Source: an uncultured Cohaesibacter sp. (GTDB lineage: Bacteria; Pseudomonadota; Alphaproteobacteria; Rhizobiales; Cohaesibacteraceae). Taken from it: 64,000 bases of DNA. The stretch covers positions 2,051,001 to 2,115,000 of the forward strand of contig NZ_OY782764.1 in the NCBI RefSeq assembly GCF_963678225.1, given 5' to 3'. Numbering within the stretch: the first letter of the stretch is position 1; the number at the start of each line of letters is the position of its first letter. The notes below the pieces were generated by a model. The model searched no databases. It was not told the origin of the DNA and saw only the letters and a list, made by a program, of their open reading frames with translations. Position numbers and translations under genes: made by a program. Of the stretch, positions 49,266-64,000 are shown piece after piece.

Positions 49266-50219
49266 ATGTCCCGTTTCCCGATCAAAAGCCTCGCTGCGGC
49301 CCTTATGCTCGCTGGTCTCTCTTTGCCCGCATCCGCCGGAACCCCTTTCTCGGTCATGCTCGACTGGTTTGTGAACCCCGATCATGGCCCGATCATCGTT
49401 GCCAAGCAACGGGGATATTTCAAGGAAGCCGGGCTGGATGTTGACATTATTGCGCCCGCCGATCCGTCCGATCCGCCCAAGATGGCTGCCGCTGGAGAAA
49501 TCGATCTGGGGGTCTCCTACCAGCCCCAGCTCTATTTGCAGCATAAGGAAGGCCTGCCTGTGGTGCGGGTTGGTTCGCTGATCGATAGCCCGCTCTATTG
49601 CATCATGGTGGATGCGGACGGGCCGGTTAAAAGCCTTGCCGATCTCAAGGGCGGGCGTGTCGGCTTTTCCGTTCCCGGCATTGAGGAAGCCCTGATGCAT
49701 CGCATGTTGCGCACCAACGGTGTCGAGCCCGATGAGGTGGAGCAGGTCAATGTCAATTTCGCCCTGACTTCTGCGTTGGCCGCAGGCAAGGTAGACGCCG
49801 TTGGCGGTGCCTTCCGCAATTTCGAACTGCACCAGATGGCCATGGTCGGGCGCAAGGGAAAATGCTTCTTCCCAGAGGAGAATGGCGTACCGATCTATGA
49901 AGAGCTGATCTATGAAACCGCTGCAGACCGAGCAGATTTTAGTGCGATAAAGACCTTCCTCAAGGTGACGGCCCGTGCTGCTCAAGAGATTGCCAAAGAC
50001 CCCGAAGGCACCTGGGAAGAATTCAAAGGCTATGCGGCCGAGCTGGATGATCAGCTCAATCATGACGCATGGTTTGATACCTATCCCAAATTCTCGGTCA
50101 AGCCGATGGCGCTGGACAAGGCTCGCTATGAAGCCTTTGGCGCTTATCTCAATGAAATCGGTATGATTGAGGCCACTCCACCGCTCGATGGCATCACCCA
50201 TGATCTATCTGGCGAATAG
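49266..50219 (+). CDS. thiY: Periplasmic pyrimidine-precursor binding protein (ThiY-like, NMT1/THI5 fold)
   Basis: A 317-residue NMT1-fold protein. A signal peptide is followed by ASAGTPFSVMLDWFVNPDHGPIIVAKQRGYFKEAGLDVDII, typical of ThiY proteins that bind formyl-aminopyrimidine or HMP. KPMALDKARYEAFGAYLNEIGMI is the usual C-terminal motif. It lies directly after thiD, before an ATPase gene with which it overlaps by about 20 bases. The symbol follows operon context; ligand choice between HMP and its formylamino precursor is not decided. Confidence 0.86.
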   Translation: MSRFPIKSLAAALMLAGLSLPASAGTPFSVMLDWFVNPDHGPIIVAKQRGYFKEAGLDVDIIAPADPSDPPKMAAAGEIDLGVSYQPQLYLQHKEGLPVVRVGSLIDSPLYCIMVDADGPVKSLADLKGGRVGFSVPGIEEALMHRMLRTNGVEPDEVEQVNVNFALTSALAAGKVDAVGGAFRNFELHQMAMVGRKGKCFFPEENGVPIYEELIYETAADRADFSAIKTFLKVTARAAQEIAKDPEGTWEEFKGYAAELDDQLNHDAWFDTYPKFSVKPMALDKARYEAFGAYLNEIGMIEATPPLDGITHDLSGE

Positions 50220-50925
50220 TGTGGCCGAAGTGGATCCTTACGGCCTGTCGGGAACGATCCTGCTGGATGGGGAAACGTTGATTGACCCTTTCACGCTGTC
50301 GCTTCAGGCAGGCTGGACAGCCTTGCTCGGCCCTTCCGGGTCGGGCAAGTCGACGCTTTTGCGGCTTCTGGGGGGGCTCGACTGTGAAGCCGAGCTCAAA
50401 GGCACCCGCAAGGGAGCAGAGCGTATCGGCTGGATGGCGCAATCCGATCTCATGCAGCCGCGCCTCTCGGTTTTGCAGAATGTCATGCTGATTGAAATGC
50501 TGGCAGGGCGCAAGCCAGATCGAAATCGCGCCCGCGATCTGCTGGCCGCCGTTGGGCTTTCGGACTTGGAGAGCCGCAAGCCATCGGCCCTTTCCGGCGG
50601 ACAGAGACAGCGGGTTGCCCTTGCGCGCACGCTGATGAGCGATGCCGAGTTGATCCTGCTGGATGAACCCTTCTCGGCGCTTGATCCGGCCACGCGGGCG
50701 ACCATGCAGGATCTGGCCTTTGATCAGTTCGTCGGCCGCACCGTTGTGCTTGTCACCCACGATCCGGCCGAGGCCCTGCGTCTTTGCCAGACCATCTGGG
50801 GGCTTAAAGACTATCATCTGCAGCCACTCGCGCCTCTGGCCGGAACCAAACCCCATGATCTGGCTGATCCTGCCCTGCAGGCAACCGCAGCGCGCCTTCT
50901 GGACGACATCAGGAAAAGCGCCTGA
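50200..50925 (+). CDS. thiZ: ABC transporter ATPase for thiamin precursor (ThiZ-like)
   Basis: A 241-residue ABC ATPase from ATG 50200; longer in-frame starts are possible. Walker A is LLGPSGSGKSTLLRLLGG, the signature motif LSGGQRQRVALARTL, and Walker B ILLDEPFSALDPA, with a switch histidine in VTHDPAEAL. It overlaps the end of the binding-protein gene, which indicates coupling. With the binding protein and the permease downstream it forms an importer of pyrimidine precursor. Confidence 0.88.
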   Translation: MIYLANSVAEVDPYGLSGTILLDGETLIDPFTLSLQAGWTALLGPSGSGKSTLLRLLGGLDCEAELKGTRKGAERIGWMAQSDLMQPRLSVLQNVMLIEMLAGRKPDRNRARDLLAAVGLSDLESRKPSALSGGQRQRVALARTLMSDAELILLDEPFSALDPATRATMQDLAFDQFVGRTVVLVTHDPAEALRLCQTIWGLKDYHLQPLAPLAGTKPHDLADPALQATAARLLDDIRKSA

Positions 50926-50975
50926 CCATGAATTGGTTCACCTACACAAATGTCAGCAAGAGAGAGAATGTGTGA

Positions 50976-51695
50976 ATGAGAAAGCTGATGATTCCTCTGG
51001 CGCTGATCGCAGTCTGGCAGGGGGGCGTCTCTGCCGGATTGCTGCCTGCCTTTATCCTGCCCGGTCCACTCGATGTAGCTGGCACCCTATGGTCCGATCG
51101 TGCCTTGCTGCTCACCCATGGTCTGGTAACGCTGGAAGAAGTGGCCTACGGCTTCGTCATCGGAGCGTTTCTCGGTGTTGGCGCTGCGATATTCATGATG
51201 TTGTCACCGATTGTGCGCCTCAATCTCAGGCCGGTGCTCAATGCCTCTCAAGCCATCCCCGTATTTGTGCTGGCCCCCATTTTGACCCTGTGGTTCGGCT
51301 ATGGTTTGGCGCCCAAGATTATCATGACCATTCTGCTGGTGTTTTTCCCGATTGCCTCGGGCCTTCTGGACGGGATGCTTGCAACACCACAACAAAGCCT
51401 TGATATGGCCCGCATTGCCAAGGCAAGCCGCTGGCGCGAACTGATCTGGTTGCGCTTTCCTCATGCTCTGCCACAGCTCGCAGCAAGCATCCGCATTGCC
51501 ATAACCTATGCTCCCACGGGAGCCGTGATCGGAGAGTGGATCGGCGCTTCCAAGGGACTGGGCTATCTGATGCTCATGGCAAATGCTCGCTCGCGCATCG
51601 CCCTGATGTTCGCTGCTCTGGTCGTCATCGTAGCCATGACATTGCTATTGCATCGTCTGGCAGACCGCCTGCTGCGCCGTTGGCTGTCAGCCTAG
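50976..51695 (+). CDS. thiX: ABC transporter permease for thiamin precursor (ThiX-like)
   Basis: A 239-residue membrane protein with about six helices and the cytosolic EAA-type loop MARIAKASRWRELIWLRFPHALPQLAASIRIA, which docks on the ATPase. It is in the BPD_transp_1 (SsuC/TauC-like) family. It starts 50 bases after the ATPase gene and is the last clear gene of the riboswitch operon. No terminator with a clear stem was found directly after it. Confidence 0.88.
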   Translation: MRKLMIPLALIAVWQGGVSAGLLPAFILPGPLDVAGTLWSDRALLLTHGLVTLEEVAYGFVIGAFLGVGAAIFMMLSPIVRLNLRPVLNASQAIPVFVLAPILTLWFGYGLAPKIIMTILLVFFPIASGLLDGMLATPQQSLDMARIAKASRWRELIWLRFPHALPQLAASIRIAITYAPTGAVIGEWIGASKGLGYLMLMANARSRIALMFAALVVIVAMTLLLHRLADRLLRRWLSA

Positions 51696-52057
51696 CCTAT
51701 CTTTCCCGCTTTTCATTGCTGCATAATCTGACATTTCCGATGCGTTCTCCAAAACAGCATTTTATGTGGCTTCACAATAACCTTTGATTCACGGCCTCGG
51801 GTTAGAAGTTTAGAATAAATATAAATACGATAGTTTTTCTAAATGAAATGGTCATTTGGCCAAATAGGCGTGATTATTAGTAATTATGCCTATGGCTTGC
51901 AACCTGTTGGCGAATTCGCATCTTGCCGATACTGGCAGAGTTAGGGTCATCGTGAATATTTGTGGTTCTGGACGCTTTTGTTCGTTTGCGTTAATACGTC
52001 TTTATACCAATTTGTTTAAAATAGCGCGCAATAGTTCTTGGGGGAACACTGTCTGAA
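51696..52057. other. Intergenic region between thiamin operon and diguanylate cyclase
   Basis: About 362 bases, AT-rich in the middle (51790-51870). I see no gene, no clear terminator and no regulator site. Confidence 0.5.
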
Positions 52058-52825
52058 ATGAAAAAGCGTCTGTTGCGCCTTTGCGTTATTACACTTGCTT
52101 CGATCGTGGTTTCCGTGCTTTCGACCGCTATCCTGATGCATTTCATGTTTGGCAATATACCGCGCGCCGGTTTGATTATCGCGGCGCTTGTTCCCATTCT
52201 CGCCGGCCTGCCGATTACCTTCTTCATTGATAGTCAGAGACGTAAGCTCAACATGGCCCTGGCTGATCTCAAAGAGGCGCACGGCCAGCTTGAAACGCTA
52301 AACGGAGAGTTGGAAAAGCAGGCACGCTTCGATTTCATGACCGGGTTCCTGAACCGGCGCTATTTTGTACAGGCGGTCAACGAGCAATGCGAGCGAACCG
52401 ATAAAGGGGCCATTCTGTGCATTGATGTTGATAATTTCAAAGTGATCAATGATAGCTTTGGACATCTGGTCGGGGATGAAGCTCTCAAGATGATTGCCGA
52501 GACCATCTCCAGCGCTACGCCGCACGATGCCTTGCTGGCCCGCATGGGGGGCGAGGAATTCTCGGTCTTTCTTCAACCGACAGATCTCAAAACAGCCCGC
52601 ACAGTTGCGGAACGTATCCGCACAGCCGTAGAAGCCATGACCTTTGAGCCCCGAGAGGGTGTTACCCATGATCTATCGGTGAGCATCGGGCTTGCCTTCA
52701 CCTGCAGCGCTCATGATTTTCAGGCCCTGTTCGGGCAGGCGGATCTGCATATGTATGCAGCCAAACAGCAGGGCAAGAACCGGGTTATCCTGCCAGACAA
52801 TGACGATCTGGAGCAGGTCGCCTAA
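52058..52825 (+). CDS. Membrane-anchored diguanylate cyclase (GGDEF domain)
   Basis: A 255-residue protein with two N-terminal membrane helices (about 5-28 and 36-56), a short coiled linker (LNMALADLKEAHGQLETLNGELEKQ) and a GGDEF domain (about 90-250) with the catalytic motif ARMGGEEFSVF. The preceding segment FLNRRYFVQAVNEQ and CIDVDNFKVINDSFGHLVGDEAL are typical. The inhibitory RxxD site five residues before GGEEF is absent (PHDA in that place), so feedback inhibition through that site is unlikely. It makes cyclic di-GMP. It stands alone. Confidence 0.9.
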   Translation: MKKRLLRLCVITLASIVVSVLSTAILMHFMFGNIPRAGLIIAALVPILAGLPITFFIDSQRRKLNMALADLKEAHGQLETLNGELEKQARFDFMTGFLNRRYFVQAVNEQCERTDKGAILCIDVDNFKVINDSFGHLVGDEALKMIAETISSATPHDALLARMGGEEFSVFLQPTDLKTARTVAERIRTAVEAMTFEPREGVTHDLSVSIGLAFTCSAHDFQALFGQADLHMYAAKQQGKNRVILPDNDDLEQVA

Positions 52826-52832
52826 CCCTGAG

Positions 52833-52861
52833 CTGGCCTCTCTTATAACTGGCCTCTCTTA
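52833..52861 (+). repeat. Short direct repeat after the cyclase gene
   Basis: CTGGCCTCTCTTA at 52833-52845 is repeated at 52849-52861, a 16-base period with 13 identical bases. It lies 8 bases after the stop; probably a local duplication without known role. Confidence 0.7.
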
Positions 52862-52865
52862 AACA

Positions 52866-52915
52866 TGAAAAATCCGCCAGACCATAAGACCCAAGATCCT
52901 TGAGAGCCGGCGGAT
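52866..52915 (-). terminator. Possible terminator of the glutathione transferase gene
   Basis: Inverted repeat ATCCGCC / GGCGGAT with a 31-base internal region; on the reverse strand it runs into TTTTTC. The long loop lowers confidence, but position (40 bases past the stop) and T run fit. Confidence 0.5.
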
Positions 52916-52954
52916 AGAAGAATGGAAGCGGGCCAAAAGCCCTCGCGGCTCGGA

Positions 52955-53665
52955 TCAGTCCCTAGGCGGAATATTGATGCCTTTTTGCACTGCTGGACGA
53001 TCCATGAAGCGCTTGAGATAATCAACCACATTGGTGTAGCTGTTGAAATCGACCAGATCTGTAGCTTCATAAATGCCGCCGATCGGTCGTAGCCAAGGGG
53101 CAATCGCGATGTCGGCAATGGAATAGTCACCAGCGATCCAGTCGCGGTCAGCCAGCACGCCATCGAGAACATTCAACAGGCGTTTGGTTTCTGCAATATA
53201 GCGCTCACGCGGGCGCGGATCTTCAATTTCGGCACCCTTGAATTTCACAAAGAAACCGAGCTGACCGAACATTGGGCCAATACCACCCATCTGGAACATA
53301 AGCCATTGGATGATCTTGGCGCGATCCCGTTCAGTGGCACCGATGAACTTGCCGGTCTTGTCCGATAGATAGATCAAAATGGCACCGGTTTCGAACAGGC
53401 CGATGGGATCACCGTCCGGGCCGACCGGATCAATGATGGCCGGGATTTTGTTGTTGGGGTTCAGGGAAAGAAATTCTTCGCTTTTCACATCCGCGTCCGA
53501 AAGCGTCACCTTGTGCGCTTCGTAGGGCAAACCCATTTCTTCCAGCGCAATGGATACTTTCACGCCGTTGGGAGTCGGGTAGGAATAAAGCTGGATCACA
53601 TCCGGATTCTGCGCTGGCCACCGTTTTGTAATGGGATAATCAGACAGTTTCTTTGGGTCGATCAT
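52955..53665 (-). CDS. Glutathione S-transferase / disulfide-bond oxidoreductase (YghU/YfcG-like)
   Basis: A 236-residue protein from ATG 53665, chosen because CGGAGAA lies 9 bases upstream; an earlier ATG adds 22 residues. The N-terminal thioredoxin-like domain has QLYSYPTPNGVKVSIALEEMGLPYE and NPNNKIPAIIDP followed by FETGAILIYLSDKTGKFIG, the Nu-class pattern. The C-terminal helical domain contains YSIADIAIAPWLRPIG. Nu-class members reduce disulfides with glutathione. It stands alone. Confidence 0.9.
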   Translation of the reverse strand: MIDPKKLSDYPITKRWPAQNPDVIQLYSYPTPNGVKVSIALEEMGLPYEAHKVTLSDADVKSEEFLSLNPNNKIPAIIDPVGPDGDPIGLFETGAILIYLSDKTGKFIGATERDRAKIIQWLMFQMGGIGPMFGQLGFFVKFKGAEIEDPRPRERYIAETKRLLNVLDGVLADRDWIAGDYSIADIAIAPWLRPIGGIYEATDLVDFNSYTNVVDYLKRFMDRPAVQKGINIPPRD

Positions 53666-54005
53666 ATGAATTTCTCCGAAAAATTGCCCCGTTTCACACG
53701 CAAAAAGAGCGGAAACGAACTGAGATTGCAAACGTCACCTTAAGTTAAGATCAATGAACGATTTTTGCAGGCCGCACAACGAAAGAATTTTTCTTATTGC
53801 AGCAGGCTGGCGGAAAGGATTTTTAAGGGGAGGGGCCATCATGGGGGAGACGCGTACGTGAGCAGATGGGGAGAACTGCTCGCAGCGCAAGAGGTCTGAT
53901 GCTTGGAGGCAAGAAGCGATACGGAGAATTCAGCGCGTTAAGACCAAATGTCCATGCTATGGCGATGGGCTTGTAAAAGGCAAAGAAAAGGGCTGTCGGA
54001 CCGTG
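53666..54005. other. Intergenic region
   Basis: About 340 bases between the transferase and a small reverse-strand gene. No gene, terminator or operator is convincing. GATCAA near 53750 is only a half-site. Confidence 0.45.
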
Positions 54006-54218
54006 TCAGGCAGCTTCCTGCATAGGGAGCGACTGAAGACTATCGCACTCGAAATGTGAGAAAACCGAGGCCAGAAGGTCCAGATCAACAGCATAATTCT
54101 CAACGAGGAAGTCAACGATGAGACCTCTGTTATGCGGATCCATGCCGGAATGCAGGATAACGGATTCGATTTCGGTTTCGTTCAGTAGATGTGGCCGGAT
54201 TGAAATATATTTGGGCAT
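54006..54218 (-). CDS. Small hypothetical protein
   Basis: A 70-residue acidic protein from ATG 54218, preceded by GGGGAG 5 bases upstream, which makes it likely real; a longer frame begins 48 bases earlier. The sequence MPKYISIRPHLLNETEIESVILHSGMDPHNRGLIVDFLVENYAVDLDLLASVFSHFECD reads as a helical small protein with no recognised domain, signal peptide or membrane segment. It stands alone and its role is unknown. Confidence 0.6.
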   Translation of the reverse strand: MPKYISIRPHLLNETEIESVILHSGMDPHNRGLIVDFLVENYAVDLDLLASVFSHFECDSLQSLPMQEAA

Positions 54219-54652
54219 CCTATCTCCCCAGATGTTGCCTGTTATGAATTCCGCTTCTCTGTGCAAAAGAGAAAAGAAGCAAAGAGGCCTGCAATGGCGG
54301 AAAAGCTACATTTTATGGTTAATCAAGATGGTTAACAAAAGGTTAAATAAACCATTTGATGGGCCAGAATGTGACGCCTATCAGAAAAGTTGCATCTGGT
54401 TGTGTAAAGGTCAATAAGTACAGATGGTAACACTAACAAGGGTCGCAATAAGGGTCAGAATTTGAAAGATAAGAATTTAAGGGTGTTTATCTAAGTATTT
54501 TGTAGTATTAAATTTATATGGATAAATAACTAAGAAAAATATTCAGTGCGAATTTGATTGAAACCATTTTGGAGACCTTGAAAGCGGCGCTAACTAACGC
54601 AAATAGAAGTTAGGATTGACGCAATCGCGCCTGTAAATGAAAGGATCACAAT
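54219..54652. other. AT-rich region upstream of bacterioferritin
   Basis: About 434 bases, strongly AT-rich from 54310 to 54540, containing the promoters of the small reverse gene and of the bacterioferritin. I could not identify an iron box (Irr or RirA type) by eye. No gene. Confidence 0.5.
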
Positions 54653-55141
54653 ATGTCAAACGACAAGACCATTGAGAATCTCAACACAGCCCTGCAAATG
54701 GAAATGAGCGCTGCTCATCAGTATCAGCTCAATGCGCAACGTCTGGACGATTGGGGTCTGGGCAAACTCGCCAATCAGATGCGCGAAGAAATGCGGGAAG
54801 AATGGGGCCATTCCGATCGCTTCATTGAACGGGTCCTGTTTTTGAAAGGTACGCCTGAGCTGGCGTTTGAAAAATCTCCTGTGTTGCATGACTCGCTGGT
54901 TGAGCTGTTCAAGGCAGACCTCGCCGATGAGGAAAATGCGATCCAGACCTACACCAAGGCATCCAAGGAAGCCTACGAAGTGGGCGACATCGGCTCCAAG
55001 GCTCTGTTCGAAGAAATCGTCATCGACGAAGAAGGCCATAAGGCATGGCTTGAGCTGCAGCTCGACCTGATTGAACGCCTTGGCGAGAAAACCTACAGCG
55101 CTAAATTCATGTCGACGGGTGAAGAAGAAGGCGAAGAATAA
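54653..55141 (+). CDS. bfr: Bacterioferritin-like iron-storage protein, haem ligand replaced
   Basis: A 162-residue four-helix ferritin. Ferroxidase ligands are in place: E17 (QMEMSAAH), E50 and H53 (REEWGHSDRF), the DEENAIQTY glutamate, and E and H of DEEGHKAW. Helix ends match E. coli bacterioferritin with a one-residue offset, and at the position of its haem-binding Met52 there is Trp51. So it probably stores iron without the intersubunit haem. The tail is acidic (EEEGEE). It is a single gene followed by a strong terminator. Confidence 0.9.
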   Translation: MSNDKTIENLNTALQMEMSAAHQYQLNAQRLDDWGLGKLANQMREEMREEWGHSDRFIERVLFLKGTPELAFEKSPVLHDSLVELFKADLADEENAIQTYTKASKEAYEVGDIGSKALFEEIVIDEEGHKAWLELQLDLIERLGEKTYSAKFMSTGEEEGEE

Positions 55142-55190
55142 GCTTCCTTCCACGTCCTTCAGGACATGATGCAAAACTAAAAACAATGAA

Positions 55191-55223
55191 AAGCCCCGCA
55201 TCGAACATCTGATGCGGGGCTTT
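55191..55223 (+). terminator. Terminator after bacterioferritin
   Basis: A perfect ten-base stem, GCCCCGCATC / GATGCGGGGC, around an eight-base loop, with A residues before and TTTCTTG after. It starts about 50 bases past the stop and probably works in both directions. Confidence 0.92.
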
Positions 55224-55301
55224 CTTGCATTCGTTTGTAATCAGATAAGGCCGGCTCAAACCGGATAGCTAAAAGGCGACCTATCAAGCAGGCTCCTGCA
55301 C

Positions 55302-56294
55302 CTAGACCAGTTCGGGGGAAACCGGAACGACGATGCGCCCACGGATTTTGCCTTCAAGGAATTGTGGAGCTACTTCGATGACATCTTCAAATTCGACCGT
55401 CTTGATGATGGCTTCGAGCTTTTCCTTGTCCAGATCGGTTGCCAACTGCGCCCATGCCGCCTGGCGGGCCGCCTTCGGTGCCATCACGCTGTCAACACCC
55501 TTGAGCGTAACGCCGCGCAGGATGAATGGAGCCACCGTAGTCGGCAGGTCCATGCTGTTGGCCAGACCGCAGGCAGCGACGGTACCACCATATTTGATCA
55601 TGGAGAGCAGGTTGGCCAGAACCTGACCGCCTGCCACGTCAATGGCAGCTGCCCAGCGTTCCTTGTTAAGTGGACGTGGCTTGCCGCTAAGCTCTTCACG
55701 ATCCAGAATGGAGCTTGCGCCCAGACCCTTGAGATAGTCGCTTTCGCTGGCCCGACCCGTTACGGCGACCACATTGTAGCCCTTGGCGGCCAGCAGAGCG
55801 ACGGCAACGCTGCCCACGCCGCCGGTTGCGCCGGTGACCAGCACTTCGCCCACATCAGGGGTTACGCCGTTAGCCTCCAGTGCCAGCACGCACAGCATTG
55901 CTGTGTAGCCAGCGGTACCGATGGCCATGGCCTGCCGCATGGAAATACCGGCCGGCAGCGGGATCAGGAAATCGCCATTGACCTGTGCCCGCTTGGCAAG
56001 GCCGCCCCAATATTTTTCACCCACGGACCAGCCATTGAGAATGACCTTGTCGCCGGGTTTATAGTCCGGATGACGGCTCTCGCTGACGATACCGGAAAAG
56101 TCGATGCCGGGCACCATCGGGAAGCTGCGCACAACAGGCGAAGAGCCGGTGATGGCAAGAGCATCCTTGTAGTTGAGGGTTGACCAGGCGACGTCCACTG
56201 CCACTTCACCTTCGGCCAGAGGCTCAAAGGTGACCTGGCTTTTGCTAACGGTCTGGCCGCTGTCGTCTTTTTCGATCAGAATGGCATCAAACAT
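55302..56294 (-). CDS. acuI: Acryloyl-CoA reductase-type oxidoreductase (AcuI/YhdH family)
   Basis: A 330-residue medium-chain dehydrogenase/reductase from ATG 56294 behind GAAGGAAAA; the frame extends upstream but that is the regulator's reading region. [35 protein letters not shown] and the nucleotide motif [22 protein letters not shown] match the AcuI/YhdH group, which reduces acryloyl-CoA to propionyl-CoA with NADPH and detoxifies acrylate. It overlaps the end of the TetR gene by 8 bases, so the two are co-transcribed. Confidence 0.88.
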
Positions 56295-56976
56295 TGTGTT
56301 TTCCTTCAGTTTGAAATGGAGGATTGGAAAAGGGTGTGTTGGTAAGAAGTGAGAAGAAGCCGCGCGCAAAGTGCCTCAGGGGCTCTGGGCGGCGTTCAAG
56401 TTTGGAGCGCAACACCGCGCCCTCCCAACCGATCCAGAAGAACTCTGCAAGAGCTTCAGGAGCTTGATCAGGAGCAATTTGGCCCTCGGACTGGGCAAGC
56501 GTCAGGCAATCCGCTGTAAGCTTCTGCCAGCCCTTGAGGACCGAAATGAGATGGGCACACATATCCGGCGTAAGAGCCGCCATTTCCTGCCCGAGATTGC
56601 CCACCAGACAACCACGCCGGAAGTCATGCTTGGCCATGCCGGCCTCGGCTCCATCGACAAATTTGCGCAGGCGATCCAGTGGCGACAGGCTGTCATCAGA
56701 AAAGCAGCTCTGAAGTTTGGCGGCGAAATAGGCATTATAGGCCTCTATCAGCGCTTCGCCATAATCGGCCTTTGATTTGAAGTGATGATAGAATGTGCCC
56801 TTGGTCTTGCCCGATGCCTTGAGGATTTCATCAACGCTGACATCGGTAAAGCCACGCTCGGTGAGGCAGACCAGACCAACCCGAATGAGATCCTTGCGCG
56901 CAAGTTGATCATCAGGCGCCCTGCGTGGGCGGCCTCGTGGTCTTCTCGTCTGTGTAGGCATTGGTTGATTGGTCAT
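56287..56976 (-). CDS. acuR: TetR-family repressor (AcuR-like), co-transcribed with acuI
   Basis: A 229-residue regulator. The helix-turn-helix [45 protein letters not shown] is a clear TetR N-domain. The rest is the ligand-binding bundle with [10 protein letters not shown]. Its stop lies inside the start of the reductase gene (8-base overlap). A palindrome of TetR-operator size lies about 27 bases before the start. In other Alphaproteobacteria, AcuR responds to acrylate; the symbol here is by analogy. Confidence 0.85.
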
Positions 56977-57002
56977 TGTGATGGCTTTCCCTTGGTTTAT
57001 GA

Positions 57003-57028
57003 TTTAATAGACTAAATGGTCTGTTAAA
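57003..57028. promoter_or_regulatory. Palindromic TetR-type operator upstream of acuR-acuI
   Basis: Arms TTTAATAGAC (57003-57012) and GTCTGTTAAA (57019-57028) are inverse repeats with one mismatch and a six-base centre. The core TAGAC-N6-GTCTG resembles the TAGAC/GTCTA operators of NemR- and AcuR-type repressors. It sits 27-52 bases upstream of the acuR start, a sensible place for autoregulation. Confidence 0.8.
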
Positions 57029-57300
57029 TGCCATGGATGAAAGCGAATAGCTGCGATGCGATTTCTCCTGATATGGGAAAAACCGCATATGCAATGGATT
57101 GAGAGCACCAGATTGGCCGCTGTGGGCGCGTTTGCGTTTGCCAGTCTGGACGATCCCTTGCCTGGCAGATGGATGCAACAAAGCCGTCGATAGGGGAGGC
57201 CCCAACCAACTTGAGCGGTCATGATTTGATCGAAGGTTTTCGAGCCACCTGTAAACGGCTCTCAAGGCACCCGCTTTAAGGCGGCGCTGTAACCGGTCGC
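57029..57300. other. Intergenic region between the regulator and DUF2948 genes
   Basis: About 270 bases beyond the operator, without a supportable gene. The acuR promoter probably overlaps its left part. No terminator with a clear stem for DUF2948 was found. Confidence 0.45.
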
Positions 57301-57795
57301 CTAATTTCCCTGTGAAGCTGCCTGCTGCTCGAAGGTTTCTGCAGCTTCATGCTCGGGTAGATTTTCGGTTTCCCAAGCTGCGCCTGTGTCTGCCAACTGG
57401 GCTTCGATGCATTCCACGCTGAGGCGTATTTCTGCATCGCCTGCAAAGATCAGGGAAATGAAGCCGTCCGGACCTTCACCATTGGGCTCGAAGGTCAGCG
57501 CAAGCAGATTGAGGATGGCATCTTTGGCCGCCACGCGAATATTGCGGCTTTGTACGCCGGTCACCCGGTCGAAATGCAAAACGGCCTGATGGCGCTCATA
57601 GGATGGTTTGGAACCGAACACGCGGCGCTGTTGTCGGATTGCCTCTTCCCACGCAAAGCGGTGCATGGCGACCACGAGGCGGCCCTCATCCTTGAGCCAA
57701 TTGATGTCACCAACCTTGACCACAGCATCCTGCGTCTGGCTGGAAAGCACATTCAGGTCGTCTGAATCCAGAGCGGCGAGTTTCAGCATGGTCAT
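57301..57795 (-). CDS. DUF2948-family protein
   Basis: A 164-residue protein of a family found almost only in Alphaproteobacteria. Typical features are the N-terminal LKLAALDSDDLNVLSSQTQDAVVKVGDINWL, the central RFAWEEAIRQQRRVF and ESPG-free FISLIFAGDAEIRLSVECIEAQLAD. The function is unknown. In many relatives it follows murA, as here (217 bases downstream on the same strand), but a hairpin lies between them. Confidence 0.88.
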   Translation of the reverse strand: MTMLKLAALDSDDLNVLSSQTQDAVVKVGDINWLKDEGRLVVAMHRFAWEEAIRQQRRVFGSKPSYERHQAVLHFDRVTGVQSRNIRVAAKDAILNLLALTFEPNGEGPDGFISLIFAGDAEIRLSVECIEAQLADTGAAWETENLPEHEAAETFEQQAASQGN

Positions 57796-57979
57796 GGCAC
57801 TCTCCTTACAACATAATTCTCAAAGCATATTTGCTTCTGTTCTTGATCGCGTGAGCGCCAAGGCCCGACGCGTGTGACAGTGCCCAAGTCGCAGTCGAGC
57901 CCTGTCTGGGATAGGAGCGGACGGGTCAGTCATCCGCTCTGGGATTCACATAGGCAGGAAAGGTGCCAAATGCAAGAGA

Positions 57980-57997
57980 GGCGCACCCTTGTGCGCC
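57980..57997 (-). terminator. Hairpin between murA and DUF2948
   Basis: Seven-base stem GGCGCAC / GTGCGCC with a four-base loop, 15 bases past the murA stop. In the murA direction it is followed by TCTCTTGC, a weak T run; it may only partly stop transcription. Confidence 0.65.
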
Positions 57998-58012
57998 CCT
58001 AAAGATATGACT

Positions 58013-59302
58013 TTATGCAGAAATACGCTCAATCGTGGCCCCGCAAGCAGCCAGTTTGTCTTCCAGCCGTTCAAACCCGCGATCAAGGTGATAAACGCGG
58101 TTCACCTTGGTTTCACCCTCGGCGACCAGTCCGGCAATCACCAGCGATACAGAGGCTCGCAAATCTGTTGCCATGACTTGAGCGCCCTTCAGTGTATCCA
58201 CGCCCGTGACATAGGCCTTCTGGCCGTCCAGAGAGATTTTGGCACCGAGACGCGCCAGCTCCTGAACATGCATGAAGCGATTTTCGAAAATGGTTTCCGT
58301 GATGGTCGAGGTGCCCTCTGCCATGGTCATCAGCGCCATGAACTGGGCCTGCAGATCAGTCGGGAAGCCGGGGAACGGATCGGTTTCAACGCTCACCGCC
58401 TTCAGGGCGGCGCCGTTGCGGGCAATCCGGATGCCCTTGTCGTTCACTTCCACGGTGGTGCCTGTCTGGCTCAAAACGTCAAGCGCAGACTGCAAAAGAT
58501 CGGCGCGGGCGCCTGTGAGCAAAACATCGCCGCCTGTCATCGCCACGGCCATGGCGTAAGTGCCGGTCTCGATGCGGTCTGGCAAAACGCTGTGGCGTGC
58601 CCCATGCAGTTTCTCGACACCCTCGATGGTGATGGTGTCGGTGCCTGCGCCGGAAATCTTTGCACCCATGGCAATCAGGCATTCAGCCAGATCCACCACT
58701 TCGGGCTCCTTGGCGGCCTGTTTCAGGGTTGTGGTGCCCTTGGCAAGGGTCGCCGCCATCATCAGCGTATGGGTCGCACCAACAGAAATGCGCGGGAAGG
58801 TGTATTCGCCGCCTGCCAGCCCGTCGGGCGCATCGGCAACCACATAGCCATTCTCGATTTCGATCTTGGCCCCAAGCGCGGCCAGTCCGTCGATAAAAAA
58901 GTCGACCGGACGGGTACCGATGGCGCAGCCTCCCGGAAGGGACACAGAGCAATGGCCCATGCGGGCCAGAAGCGGGCCGATGACCCAAAAGCTGGCACGC
59001 ATCTTGGAAACCAGATCATAAGGGGCGCAGGTATCGATGATTTCCTCGGCCTGAAGATGAACGGTCTGGCCTGCCATGGTGTCCTGACCTGGGCGCTTGC
59101 CTTCGATCATGTAGCTGACGCCATGGTTGGAAAGAATCTGCTGGAGCTGCTGCACATCGCGAAGGCGCGGCAGGTTATCCAGAATCAACGCCTCATCGGT
59201 CAGAAGCGAGGCAATCATCAAGGGAAGAGCCGCATTCTTTGCTCCGGAAATGGGAATCTCCCCGTTTAATTCTGCGCCGCCTACAATGCGAATTGCGTCC
59301 AT
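58013..59302 (-). CDS. murA: UDP-N-acetylglucosamine 1-carboxyvinyltransferase MurA
   Basis: A 429-residue EPSP-synthase-fold enzyme performing the first committed step of peptidoglycan synthesis. [28 protein letters not shown] is the substrate-binding N-terminus (with the catalytic lysine of GAKNA). The active-site cysteine is in [15 protein letters not shown], so fosfomycin sensitivity through that residue is expected. The C-terminus includes [26 protein letters not shown]. The start ATG 59302 fits the family. A small basic protein gene lies 200 bases upstream. Confidence 0.97.
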
Positions 59303-59502
59303 TTCAAACTCTTTCTGTTGTCGGTCGACTGGGCAATCCTGTTGTGCCTGCCTGGCCGATAATTCTTGTAAAACCCGAAAAGGGAATGATTCTGTTTTCC
59401 TGATCCTGCCTCATGAGCAAAAGGCTATCGTTAAACTGGCACGGTGATCCAAACTGGATATATCCGGATGGCCGGAACAGCCAAGCCGCAGCCCAAAGCC
59501 CT

Positions 59503-59691
59503 CTAGTCTTCGCTCCCCGCAGACGTTGGCGCCTGAGGCGCACTTTCCGTCCGTCTGGCGCGGGTCTGTGCCTTGCGGCGTTTCAGATTGTCACGCAGGG
59601 CTTGCGACAGGCGCGCCTTGCGTTCATCGCCCTTGCCCTTGGCGGGGCAGGAGGACTGTTTGCCAGAGGTGTTGATATCTTTAGAGGACAT
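59503..59691 (-). CDS. Small basic hypothetical protein upstream of murA
   Basis: A 62-residue protein: MSSKDINTSGKQSSCPAKGKGDERKARLSQALRDNLKRRKAQTRARRT and an alanine/proline-rich tail. The middle (DERKARLSQALRDNLKRRKAQ) resembles small basic proteins found near murA in many Alphaproteobacteria; this is recall without alignment. It may bind nucleic acid because of its charge, but that is inference. It is on the murA strand, 200 bases before its start, possibly co-transcribed. Confidence 0.68.
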   Translation of the reverse strand: MSSKDINTSGKQSSCPAKGKGDERKARLSQALRDNLKRRKAQTRARRTESAPQAPTSAGSED

Positions 59692-60012
59692 GGTTTCTGC
59701 TATGCGTGCGCAATGAAAGGATCATTGAATTTGTCTGTTGGCAGGTTCTATACCAAAAGTGTGCGCCAAGAAAGCCCACAATGAGGCCATTTAAGGGCTG
59801 AAATGCGCTTTTTGTGAAGCCACGGTCTATTGCCATATGGCAAGGCACTCACACGCTATGGAAGATGCTTTTTGCGGGCAGGATTTTCACAGGTGTCATC
59901 AAATTCACAAAATTGTTGCCTTTTTTCAAAATCGCGCTTGCATATTCGAAATCTGTATGCAAAAAACCGCCCCGCATCAGGTGGTCAACATCTGGTCAAA
60001 ACACCTAGGAAC
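59692..60012. other. Region before tRNA-Thr
   Basis: About 321 bases. Besides the promoter of the small basic gene (reverse) it must hold the tRNA-Thr promoter. I see no definite -35/-10 pair, no operator and no gene. Confidence 0.45.
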
Positions 60013-60087
<75 letters not shown>

Positions 60088-60495
60088 TTCCCTCCCCTAA
60101 AATTCGTATCAAATTTGCCGTGGCATCAAAGCGCGCTTTGAGAGTTTGTGGAACCGGCTTCATCTTGTGGTGATGATCAAACGTCTTCCTTTTGCTAACG
60201 TCTCTCTTCTCATATTAAATCCGATCTCTGTCGGGTATAATATTTCTATATCTTGATGATATATTGACGCTTTTAGCCCATTTGGCGGGGGTCACTCAAA
60301 TGTGTTGATCCGGCAATGAGAAGCCGTTGCTCTGTCATTTGAAAACTGTAAAATGCACCGTTTGAATATCGCCTCGGTGATTTGGAAAACGCTATTGCTC
60401 TTCGGTAAACTATTTGCAGTAGCCCTCTGATAAACCAAGCCTTTTTATTCAGAAATCAATCGATCCAGAGTTCCATTTACAAGAGTTCCGCCCAT
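60088..60495. other. Intergenic region before the acyl-CoA ligase
   Basis: About 408 bases. No gene, terminator or regulator palindrome stands out. The AT-rich part near 60230-60270 may contain a promoter for the ligase operon. Confidence 0.45.
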
Positions 60496-61944
60496 ATGTC
60501 AGTTCAAGATTTTTCTGCGCGTCTCCCACAAATTCGTTGTCCATCTGTCATCGAAGGGGAGACGAGAGTTTCATCTTCAGAGCTGTCACGGCGCGCCGCT
60601 GCTATTCGCAATGCCATTCTTGCACGGGACTATCAATCAGGCGCTCGCGTTGTGCTGCTGGCCAGCAACTGTGCCAATGCTGTCGCTGCGCTTTTGGGAG
60701 GACTGGAAACCGGGCTGATTATCGTGCCGGTTAACACGGCGCTGCCTGAACCGGAAAAGAAGCGCATCTTTAAGGATGCGCTGCCCGTTGCGATTCTGAC
60801 AGATCTGCAGAATGTTCGCGAAACCGATGGCGTTGATGCATCGGTCGATATTTTGAGTTTGGATGATCTGCTAAAGGAAGACGCTCCAGAAGCGTTTGCT
60901 GAGATCAAGCCTGAAGCCCCGGCGTTGGTTCTTTACACCTCTGGTTCAACTGGCAATCCCAAGGGTGTCGTGTTTCCTCGATCTTATCTCGATGGCAACG
61001 GCAAACAGTTTGGCGAAGAGTTGTTTGGTCTGAATGAAACGGATGTCATTCTGCTGCCCATGGAAGTATCGAGCATCATTTCCATCACGCTGGTAACCGC
61101 AACGCGCCATGTCGGTGCGACGCTGGTCATCACTCGCACTCATCGACCCGATGCGATCATAGAGACTTTGCAACGCGCTAAGGTCACCATGATGATGACT
61201 GTGACGACCGTTGCCGAATTCGTCCTGAAAATGACCGAAGGCATGGACGATCCGTTTCCTGATCTGAGGATCATGACCATCGGGGGCAACTATGTTTCGG
61301 CAGCTCTGTCAGACCGTCTGGCCGAGGCATTCGGTGTGCGTATCGACGTCATCTATGCGTCCACTGAAGTAGCGCCCACAATCTATCTCATTGATCGCAA
61401 GAGTGCGCCGGATGGTGCCGCCGGTCCCGCCGCACCCGGCACGGATATCGAGATCCTGGATCCGGATGGACAGCCTGTGCCCCAAGGAGAACCCGGAGAG
61501 CTGGTGGTTTCTGGCCCGAAGGTAGCCATCGGCTACTGGACCGGCGAGGGGGATGATTCCATGCATTTCAACGGGCGCTTTGCCACAGGAGATCTGGGCT
61601 ATCGCGATGAAGCCGGAAACTATTTCATTATCGGTCGCTCCAAGGAAGTCATAAAGACGGGCGGCCTGTCTGTTTATCCGCCAGAAGTCGAAAAAGTTTT
61701 GTCGCAACATCCTGCCATTCACAGTGTTGCTGTGCTTGGGAAGCCAAACTCCACTCTGGGGGAAGTGGTTGTTGCCTTCGTTGTGCCCAAAAAGGGACAT
61801 ACACTGACCTCGGTTGAACTCATTGCATGGAGCAAGAAAAATCTCGCTTCGGGTAAATGCCCGCGGGGTATCAAATTTGTTGAAACCCTGCCGCAGACCA
61901 CCACAGGCAAGGTGGCGAAAAACGAATTGAGGAAGCAATTGTGA
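60496..61944 (+). CDS. AMP-forming acyl-CoA synthetase / acyl-AMP ligase
   Basis: A 482-residue ANL-superfamily enzyme that activates a carboxylic acid with ATP. The phosphate loop is LVLYTSGSTGNPKGVV, followed by IYASTEVAPTIY (adenine-binding), the hinge-region ATGDLGYRDEAGNYFIIGRSKEVIKTGG, and the catalytic lysine near QTTTGKVAKNELR, two residues into the usual TxxGKxxr motif. The N-terminal 100 residues are shorter than usual. Substrate is unknown. The stop overlaps the next gene's GTG start, so the two are coupled. Confidence 0.9.
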   Translation: MSVQDFSARLPQIRCPSVIEGETRVSSSELSRRAAAIRNAILARDYQSGARVVLLASNCANAVAALLGGLETGLIIVPVNTALPEPEKKRIFKDALPVAILTDLQNVRETDGVDASVDILSLDDLLKEDAPEAFAEIKPEAPALVLYTSGSTGNPKGVVFPRSYLDGNGKQFGEELFGLNETDVILLPMEVSSIISITLVTATRHVGATLVITRTHRPDAIIETLQRAKVTMMMTVTTVAEFVLKMTEGMDDPFPDLRIMTIGGNYVSAALSDRLAEAFGVRIDVIYASTEVAPTIYLIDRKSAPDGAAGPAAPGTDIEILDPDGQPVPQGEPGELVVSGPKVAIGYWTGEGDDSMHFNGRFATGDLGYRDEAGNYFIIGRSKEVIKTGGLSVYPPEVEKVLSQHPAIHSVAVLGKPNSTLGEVVVAFVVPKKGHTLTSVELIAWSKKNLASGKCPRGIKFVETLPQTTTGKVAKNELRKQL

Positions 61945-64000
61945 CTGTAACCTCTGGCGAAGGGGCCAAGAGCATCAAGGCCATGCGCGAAGCGCTTGGC
62001 TCTGCCGCAAGGGCGGGTGACTTCGACACCATATTCCAGATGCTTGATGCACAGGGCGATTGTCTGCCTTTGCGTCTGCAAGTCTATTTCAGGGCCTTGG
62101 CTCTTGTGCGTACGGGGCGTCCGGCCGAGGCGCTGGAGGTGTTGGAAAATGGGCCTGAAAATCAACAGAATTTGGGGTTGCTCATTGGAAGCCTGATCGA
62201 CGCCGGACAAATTGGAGAAGCTGGCTTGCGGCTCTCTTCAGCAGAGCTAAAACCGCATCAGAAAAGAGGGTATCTTGCCCGACTGGCGCGGGCTGCATTC
62301 GTTTGTGGTGACTATGGCGCGGCGGCCTATTGGGGCCTTAAATTCAGAGAGGCCGCGTCCCGGCCAATGCCCAGGTTCAATGCCGATTTATCCGGTTTAA
62401 TTCTACTTGGCGATGTTGAGGCTGTTCGTGAGCGATTGCCTCTGAGTGGCTCAAATCAAGCCGCAATATTGGGGCATGCGCTCCGAGAGGCTGCAGTGGT
62501 ATTTGATCGGCGGGCAGCCGAGGGCAAAAAAGTCCAGTACGCCCTTCTTCGGCCCTTTCTGGATCTCATGCCGGATCCTCAGTCTCTCAAGATCATGCAG
62601 AATGTGGCACGGCGCGGCACGCCTATATCTCGTCGGCTTCTTTCGATGATCAGGCGGATGCCTGCCAAACAGGCGCGAAAGCCAGGCAAGGCAAAGGCAG
62701 TTCGCGAGCAATTGGAAAAGGCGACAAAGGCGCAGGATTATGAGACTGTATTCGCTATCCTCGACAAGGATGGCGCGCAGATTCCGGCCCCTCTTCAAGC
62801 TTACTTCAAAGCAAAAGCTCTTTTGAAAAGCGGGCGCCCTGATGAGGCCTTAGAGTTTTTGGAAAAGGCCCCTGCAACAAGGCGACTGCAAATGCTGCGC
62901 CTTGGGGCATTGATTGGCGCAGGTAGGATTGCAGAAGCAGAACAGCTTTTTTCTGTCTTGCGAGACACCCTAAAGCCACACCATTTGCGAGACTTGTTAA
63001 GGCGTCTGTCGCTTGCGAGCTTCGTCGCTGGTGACTATCACGCAGCGGCGCAATGGGGGCTGGAACTGAGAAACTCTTCACCCCAGCCGATAAGCTATTT
63101 CAGAACAGATCTGTCAGCGCTGATCTTGCTTAACGATGGGGAGGCTGTGCGTGAACGGCTTAAGCTTTGCAAGCCGGTGCCTGTGCGTATTCTGGGTGTT
63201 GCGCTTAAAGAAGCGGCTCTTGTGCTTGATCACAGGGCAGAGCAGGGGGAAGCGGTCGACTATTCCTTTTTGGAAGCCTACTTTGCGTTCGCGTCCAATT
63301 TTTCCGAGCTTTGGGAAATTAAGCAGAGTATCGTCACAGGATTGCCGCAATCGCCAAAACTGAGCGCCATGATTTGGGATAGGCTGTGTAGTCAGCTCTC
63401 TCCAGACGAAATTGACCCCAATGCATTTCCATCTGGAGAAGGGCCCTCTCGCCCCATCGGTCCAAGCATTTCTCTGGTGGCTGATTGGCTGGGGGTGCCA
63501 GACAATGAACGCTCGGACTGGCTTGCGCGTGTCGCATCGGCACAGGAGGCCAACAACAAGCTTGCCACGGCCATCTTGGGCGTGCCTGCCTATCGGGAAC
63601 ATCTGGCCCGCAGCTTGCCGCCCGTGGACTGGAGAGCAGTGAAACAAAGCCTGTCTGATGGACATCCTGTAATCCTGGCCTCAAGCCATGCAAGCTTCAG
63701 ATTTGCCATGCCGTTGGAATTTCACCGCAGTGGTATTGATGTGCGCATCATCTCCTCCAAGCATGCTTTCGCAACCGTGCCGGAATATGTTGACATGCAT
63801 TATGCATCGCTGGATGGGCGTCCGGTCAACCTTATGGCGCGCAGGCTGATCGAAGTCCTCAAAAGGGGCGGGTGCACATTCGTTACCGCAGATGGTCAGT
63901 CTGGTGCACAAACAAAATCCTTCCCGGAATTCGGGGTTGACGCCAGATTGCCTGCGGGGGCTTTTGCCCTTGCCCTGCGCTATGATGCGCATGTCTACTG
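61941..64000 (+). CDS. Large duplicated TPR-like protein with acyltransferase-like end (partial, runs off window)
   Basis: Open from GTG 61941 to the window end, at least 686 residues, no stop. It overlaps the ligase stop by 4 bases (GTGA), though there is no strong ribosome site; an ATG at 61983 is an alternative. Residues about 10-235 and 255-475 are two copies of the same helical module (compare DYGAAAYWGLKFREA with DYHAAAQWGLELRNS, and GRPAEALEVLENGP with GRPDEALEFLEKAP). The last 120 residues (VILASSHASFRFAMPLEFHRSGIDVRIISSKH and later FVTADGQ) resemble LpxL/HtrB-type lipid acyltransferases, though the HxxxxD/E acid is not obvious (HASFRF). Coupling to the ligase suggests acyl activation followed by transfer. 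Confidence 0.75.
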   Translation, partial: MTVTSGEGAKSIKAMREALGSAARAGDFDTIFQMLDAQGDCLPLRLQVYFRALALVRTGRPAEALEVLENGPENQQNLGLLIGSLIDAGQIGEAGLRLSSAELKPHQKRGYLARLARAAFVCGDYGAAAYWGLKFREAASRPMPRFNADLSGLILLGDVEAVRERLPLSGSNQAAILGHALREAAVVFDRRAAEGKKVQYALLRPFLDLMPDPQSLKIMQNVARRGTPISRRLLSMIRRMPAKQARKPGKAKAVREQLEKATKAQDYETVFAILDKDGAQIPAPLQAYFKAKALLKSGRPDEALEFLEKAPATRRLQMLRLGALIGAGRIAEAEQLFSVLRDTLKPHHLRDLLRRLSLASFVAGDYHAAAQWGLELRNSSPQPISYFRTDLSALILLNDGEAVRERLKLCKPVPVRILGVALKEAALVLDHRAEQGEAVDYSFLEAYFAFASNFSELWEIKQSIVTGLPQSPKLSAMIWDRLCSQLSPDEIDPNAFPSGEGPSRPIGPSISLVADWLGVPDNERSDWLARVASAQEANNKLATAILGVPAYREHLARSLPPVDWRAVKQSLSDGHPVILASSHASFRFAMPLEFHRSGIDVRIISSKHAFATVPEYVDMHYASLDGRPVNLMARRLIEVLKRGGCTFVTADGQSGAQTKSFPEFGVDARLPAGAFALALRYDAHVY

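Follow-up and report, generated by a model that had tools for sequence, protein, structure and literature searches.

This study focused on two overlapping genes at the end of a 64,000-nucleotide (nt) stretch of DNA from an uncultured Cohaesibacter sp. (the window: positions 2,051,001-2,115,000 of contig NZ_OY782764.1, assembly GCF_963678225.1; coordinates below are relative to it). The first encodes an AMP-forming acyl ligase and the second a protein in which two TPR-like modules precede a predicted acyltransferase domain of the LPLAT type. This architecture is that of VexE, the acyltransferase that provides the Vi capsule (Vi antigen) with its lipid anchor, and the protein is VexE-like rather than VexE itself. 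The two genes form a two-gene unit, and the best explanation, to which we give a probability of about 0.55, is an activate-and-attach cassette, in which the ligase would make an acyl donor from which the VexE-like enzyme would acylate a sugar or sugar nucleotide. While the architecture is already known, the combination of a VexE-like enzyme and a ligase outside a capsule setting looks new; the literature searched, from which subscription papers and preprints were left out, gave no description of an acyl ligase next to a VexE-like protein. The features of the pair are as follows.

60496..61944, + strand: AMP-forming acyl ligase, 482 residues (open reading frame (ORF), Pfam)
61941..64000, + strand: TPR-LPLAT protein, GTG start, 749 residues in full, ending 190 nt past the window (L002:1941-4190)
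61977..62651, + strand: TPR-like module 1, residues 13-237 (internal alignment; TPR_4 at residues 49-69 of the whole protein)
62694..63374, + strand: TPR-like module 2, residues 252-478 (internal alignment; TPR_19 at residues 294-352)
63441..64000, + strand: predicted LPLAT-type acyltransferase domain, residues 501-749, the last 62-63 beyond the window (profile match to LpxM/PatA; NCBIfam VexE)
63687..63689, + strand: H583, conserved histidine (H in 19/20 VexE-like rows)
63702..63704, + strand: F588, where HxxxxD/E has its canonical acid (D/E in 0/20 VexE-like rows; see below)
63891..63893, + strand: D651, candidate partner acid (D/E in 19/20 VexE-like rows; 18 D, 1 E)

The ligase stop and the GTG start overlap, as a preliminary description of the window had it; by ORF reading they share 4 nt on the same strand (61941-61944). 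That description called the second protein huge; the rest of the gene, obtained from a locus that runs beyond the window end (L002; L and G codes denote the fetched loci and genomes of the comparison set), makes it long rather than huge. Comparison of the three Cohaesibacter genomes that carry the pair shows purifying selection on each gene: the ratio of nonsynonymous to synonymous substitution (dN/dS) is 0.07-0.12 in the ligase and about 0.2 in its partner.

The TPR modules and the acyltransferase domain

The two helical repeats of roughly 220 residues that had been recognized by eye are TPR-like modules. They align with 105 of 224 residues identical (47%), at a score of 444 against a maximum of 56 over 500 shuffles. 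The whole protein lies above the Pfam cut-offs for TPR_19, TPR_4, and ANAPC3, and module 1 searched alone falls below every Pfam cut-off. AlphaFold modelled the TPR part with confidence mostly of 70-87 by block, some blocks being lower at 53-65, and Foldseek matched this model to TPR/PPR solenoids in the PDB (E down to 4.4e-7), with low TM-scores of 0.11-0.24 by query length among the 50 matches listed. In C. marisflavi (G009, L006:1501-3750), residues ~75-130, in module 1, share only ~40% identity with the proteins of the other two genomes, most flanking intervals being ~90% identical, a pattern that suggests a local exchange of repeat segments.

The C-terminal domain is assigned to the LPLAT type by profile comparison. 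As a single query it retrieved no acyltransferase in Pfam or the PDB, and a profile was needed. The likeness to lipid acyltransferases that was first noticed in the truncated sequence persists in the full protein: a profile of eight rows (the domain and seven relatives) matched LpxM in the PDB (E 6.4e-7) and, weakly, PatA (E ~0.003), and the NCBIfam VexE model (NF011721, cut-off 1200 bits) matched residues 571-747 of the full protein (27.0 bits, E 1.2e-6), while the incomplete protein of the window gave no match to that model. No Pfam match above cut-off to Lip_A_acyltrans (PF03279, LpxL/LpxM) was obtained for the domain. Eight proteins in all were scanned with the VexE model. Those of L135, L134, L077, and L043 scored 724.8, 481.6, 439.8, and 433.6 bits, the standalone domain of G151 scored 52.1 bits and the protein of G162 31.2 bits, and no match was listed for the G383 protein. 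All of the matching proteins, the relatives from capsule-like loci included, missed the cut-off.

According to the VexE study (PMC9597891), that enzyme consists of a TPR part (residues 1-385) and an LPLAT part (386-686), acts as a beta-hydroxyacyl-ACP:UDP-GlcNAc 6-O-acyltransferase, and carries a tyrosine in place of the HX4D/E acid. Its H466A variant had no detectable activity and its D532A variant substantially reduced activity, D532 being the partner acid, equivalent to E200 of PatA and 66 residues from H466 (PMC9597891). The Cohaesibacter protein likewise has no HxxxxD/E motif, which the preliminary description had proposed to look for, and reads HASFRF from H583 to F588. By spacing, its H583, S606, D651, and R747 lie at places equivalent to those of VexE. 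The histidine and the acid are 66 residues apart in three capsule-locus relatives and 68 apart in the Cohaesibacter protein, where the alignment shows two residues inserted between H583 and D651.

Only H583, the +5 place, and D651 were counted across rows, the letters at S606 and R747 varying between alignments in some distant rows; a 113-residue fragment without the H region (L138) was left out. The VexE-like set agrees with VexE in managing without the acid, although the figure of 0/20 depends to some extent on the motif, by which weak rows were in part sorted as VexE-like or canonical. The figure was read from the printed motif strings, a few gapped rows having the +5 column out of place. 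The single row of the 20 that lacks the catalytic histidine (AVGAGH) is a TPR-LPLAT-like protein of G046 (L133:5873-7915), possibly a non-catalytic member to judge from these residues. Among short LPLAT proteins the classic acid (E) is present in 39 of 43 distinct readable rows, in a survey of 78 loci, many of which are repeat fetches of one gene; L056 is gapped in this survey and reads HFGNWE separately.

The domain gave some match at E 0.1 in 48 of 297 genomes of the order, and besides Cohaesibacter the matches in G211, G165, G137, and G151 were upheld. A match in G023 contains an internal stop and gave no LPLAT ORF in L007 or L046. At E 0.001 the domain profile matched 86 of 385 genomes of the class, finding LpxL-type proteins widely, and at E 1e-8 further profile searches matched 15/397 genomes of the order and 21/398 of the phylum, short canonical rows included. 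At E 1e-10 only one of 14 genomes around G383, three of 48 around G886, and four of 69 around G151 were matched, so that the relatives of the paired genomes are mostly without the domain. The deep forks of the tree are weak, including the split between canonical and VexE-like rows (support 41/79), and for this reason the VexE-like rows are not claimed to be one clade; the LpxL row from the window's own genome is a 35-residue fragment and uninformative in the tree.

Pairing with acyl ligases across lineages

The ligase matched Pfam AMP-binding (E 2.2e-64) and AMP-binding_C (E 9.8e-21), both above cut-off, and its closest solved structures are feruloyl- and fatty-acyl-CoA synthetases (E 7e-60). 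The motifs YTSGSTGNPKG, YASTE, TGD, GRSKEVIKTGG, and a C-terminal TTGK are all present. No NCBIfam family that would give a substrate class reached its cut-off among the best 25 of 111 matching families; the acid may be fatty, hydroxy-fatty, or aromatic.

An AMP ligase directly adjoins a VexE-like domain in five of 17 lineages, and the gene order varies:

Cohaesibacter: ligase first, then TPR-LPLAT
G151: ligase first, then a domain without TPR
G383: TPR-LPLAT first, then ligase
G1133: LPLAT without TPR first, then ligase
G886: TPR-LPLAT first, then a ligase truncated where the contig ends (AMP-binding E 3.7e-7; 29.7 bits, cut-off 29.9)

The remaining lineages are the capsule copy of g52, the second copy of G211, G546, G1093, G1033, G1141, G769, G837, g90, G695, G250, and G046; Cohaesibacter is counted once, though three of its genomes carry the pair. 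The reading frames touch or overlap in Cohaesibacter, G151, G383, and G1133 (in the last two depending on the start codon chosen), and in G886 the intergenic gap exceeds 100 nt. Paired ligases are 22-26% identical between lineages (33% for G383 and G1133), so the pairing is either old or arose more than once.

As a control, the ligase profile matched in the flanks of one of 39 loci of short LPLATs that keep the acid (L057, G487). In G862 (L169:5730-8106), outside the VexE-like set, a ligase ends 16 nt before an LpxL-length LPLAT that lacks the acid (HVGNFP); this LPLAT is one of four acid-less short rows whose surroundings were checked, and the other three have no directly adjoining ligase. 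Together with these four rows, which were examined afterwards, the VexE-like lineages give six of 21 with a ligase. One-sided Fisher tests against the control gave 0.008 (5/17) and 0.006 (6/21), values to be read with the facts that the lineages are related and not independent, that the search profiles held paired members, that the ligase profile was built from three of the paired ligases, and that the control loci have shorter flanks. A chance estimate with an assumed background of 1-3% (6e-7 to 1e-4) has been superseded by this measured control of 39 loci.

Ligase-profile matches ~3.5-7 kb away in L134, L128, L130, and L132 were not counted as pairs, and a match 3.5 kb from the capsule gene of G1093 was left out likewise. 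The TPR-LPLAT proteins of L128, L130, and L132 (G162, G209, G701) are at least 979 residues long as read, the choice of frame being unsure, and the ligase-profile match some 3-7 kb off is on the same strand. In L126 and L136 (G769, G837) the TPR-LPLAT gene lies near a shared family of ~425 residues, with a radical-SAM-like gene recognized by eye in L136; this is a third gene context for the TPR-LPLAT class.

VexE-like genes were also found, by eye, in loci resembling ATP-binding cassette (ABC) export of Vi-type capsules (L043, L077, L134, L135, L164), beside an ABC permease and ATPase, a KpsE-like protein, an outer-membrane exporter, and a sugar epimerase or dehydrogenase. Such loci occur both in the class to which the window belongs and in a second class of its phylum. 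To judge from its flanks, the Cohaesibacter pair is not in a capsule ABC-export locus, and no capsule genes were seen by eye beside the pair in four of the five paired lineages (L002, L042, L078, L165), the fifth being a 3.8-kb contig (L137).

Proposed function and alternatives

In the proposed cassette, the ligase would adenylate a free carboxylic acid and form an acyl thioester on acyl carrier protein (ACP) or coenzyme A (CoA). The VexE-like TPR-LPLAT enzyme would then take this donor and O-acylate a sugar, the likeliest acceptor being a sugar nucleotide or small glycan, with H583 presumably working with D651 as partner acid in replacement of the classic HxxxxD/E pair. The VexE study reports that the donor was made in vitro with an acyl-ACP synthetase (PMC9597891). 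As has been proposed for the TPR superhelix of VexE, the duplicated superhelix of the Cohaesibacter protein may bind the donor, the acceptor, or the product, or guide it. This reading is strengthened by the recurrence of the pairing in 5/17 lineages against 1/39 canonical loci. The preliminary description had suggested activation and attachment of an acyl group by an unfamiliar architecture; the suggestion stands as the best reading, backed by the recurrent pairing, but the architecture proves to be the TPR plus LPLAT arrangement of VexE, and the expected motif is absent.

Resemblances to known systems are partial. The Cohaesibacter protein shares with VexE an N-terminal TPR superhelix and C-terminal LPLAT domain, an aromatic residue for the canonical acid, and a histidine with a distal acid, but differs in its internal TPR duplication, acyl-ligase partner, and non-capsule setting. 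LpxM and PatA have the LPLAT fold and the histidine in common with it, but their solved chains are of ~300-330 residues and without TPR, and LpxM keeps the canonical acid in the alignment. The transferase part of Aas of E. coli is of the LPLAT/PlsC type. Aas, as described in PMC4666226, combines acid activation and acyl transfer with a phospholipid acceptor. It likewise couples the two activities, but as a single fused polypeptide acting on phospholipid, whereas Cohaesibacter has two genes, a VexE-like domain, and TPR modules. In an apparent aryl polyene cluster of G569 (L085), which by eye also has an ammonia-lyase and an exporter, an AMP ligase directly precedes an LPLAT-containing protein, but the cluster is larger, the canonical acid is kept (HFGNME), and the protein is a glycosyltransferase-LPLAT fusion with no TPR.

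Several observations weigh against the cassette. The Cohaesibacter protein lies far under the VexE cut-off (27 of 1200 bits) and is only 17-21% identical to the capsule-locus relatives. Neither of the companions that had been suggested was recognized near the pair: no glycosyltransferase when the window and L002 were read by eye, and no small acyl-carrier-like ORF in a pattern scan of window positions 50000-64000 and L002. The AlphaFold models built from two input sequences were not usable for the LPLAT domain (confidence mostly under 50). In the Cohaesibacter proteins S585 replaces the HxG glycine and the C-terminal GGxWR is altered, and the paired G151 domain has T in the D651 column. Loss of the acid is, in addition, not unique to the VexE-like class, as it is seen in four of the 43 short LpxL-length rows (L061, L110, L119, L124).

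The alternatives differ mainly in what becomes of the activated acid. The pair might acylate an amine, peptide, lipid, or small metabolite rather than a sugar and so yield an acylated natural product or signal, which we regard as unlikely, though it is the rival to be taken most seriously: capsule genes were not seen beside the pair in those four of five lineages and the paired ligases are diverse (22-33% identity), but the strong relatives by the VexE profile sit in capsule-like loci, and according to PMC9597891 both characterised enzymes have sugar acceptors, VexE acylating a sugar nucleotide and PatA a mannose. It is distinctly improbable that the LPLAT-like domain no longer transfers acyl groups and instead only binds what the ligase makes or acts as a scaffold for it. 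The missing acid and the changes at the HxG glycine and C-terminal motif would fit such a role, but VexE is active despite an equal loss (PMC9597891), and H583 and D651 are kept under a dN/dS of ~0.2.

The last two explanations have very little in their favour. That the ligase is an unrelated neighbour which joined the island by chance would suit a variable, tRNA-flanked hotspot with mixed cargo, but hardly the 4-nt frame overlap or a pairing that recurs in both gene orders well above the control. That the second protein simply acylates lipid A or phospholipid in the ordinary way, the ligase being an accessory, is as improbable: the profile does match LpxM and widely finds LpxL-type proteins (86/385 genomes), but the genome has two other proteins above the Lip_A_acyltrans cut-off, and this domain neither matches that family nor keeps the acid seen in 39/43 short rows.

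With the activate-and-attach cassette as the preferred reading, a broader proposal may be made, tentatively and with more doubt than confidence: that a ligase and an acid-less, mostly VexE-like LPLAT constitute a recurrent, self-sufficient, here mobile, and capsule-independent pathway from a scavenged acid to an acylated sugar nucleotide, glycolipid, or small molecule. If true, the VexE enzyme class would have a second use. In PMC9597891 VexE appears as an unusual TPR-LPLAT enzyme of one capsule. The relatives found here suggest a wider class in the Alphaproteobacteria and other classes of the phylum, some of its members lying in Vi-like capsule-export loci and others having an acid-activating enzyme as partner. 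The pair offers a small, expressible system for finding a new acyl acceptor.

Genomic setting and the tRNA-Thr site

On one flank the pair adjoins murA and a tRNA gene:

60013..60087, + strand: tRNA-Thr (GGT), between murA and the pair (ARAGORN)

While murA is present in 18/18 Cohaesibacter genomes, both genes of the pair occur in three; in the other 15, of which one is only 64% complete, the second gene has no match and the ligase none above 30% identity. In all 10 of these pair-less genomes that were compared by blastn, similarity to the window ends 0-18 nt past the tRNA, and beyond it they contain neither the pair nor the genes downstream of it in the window, G014 giving only generic ABC matches of 26-27% identity. 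In three genomes the tRNA has a gene of this kind as its neighbour: one for a tyrosine integrase in G013 and in G001, and one for a protein with a recombinase domain in G011. The site looks like an integration hotspot, of which the pair is the first cargo here. The 135 kb beyond the window gave no further copy of the 3' end of tRNA-Thr, and there was no plasmid match.

No promoter-like site was found at the pair in the scanned stretch. A terminator-like hairpin of 10 pairs lies 35 nt after the stop of the second gene (L002:4225-4248), weak evidence by itself, as the scanned stretch has 12 such sites against 5.5 expected. Downstream of the hairpin, on the opposite strand, the next genes are those of an ABC transporter of the amino-acid type, named by eye.

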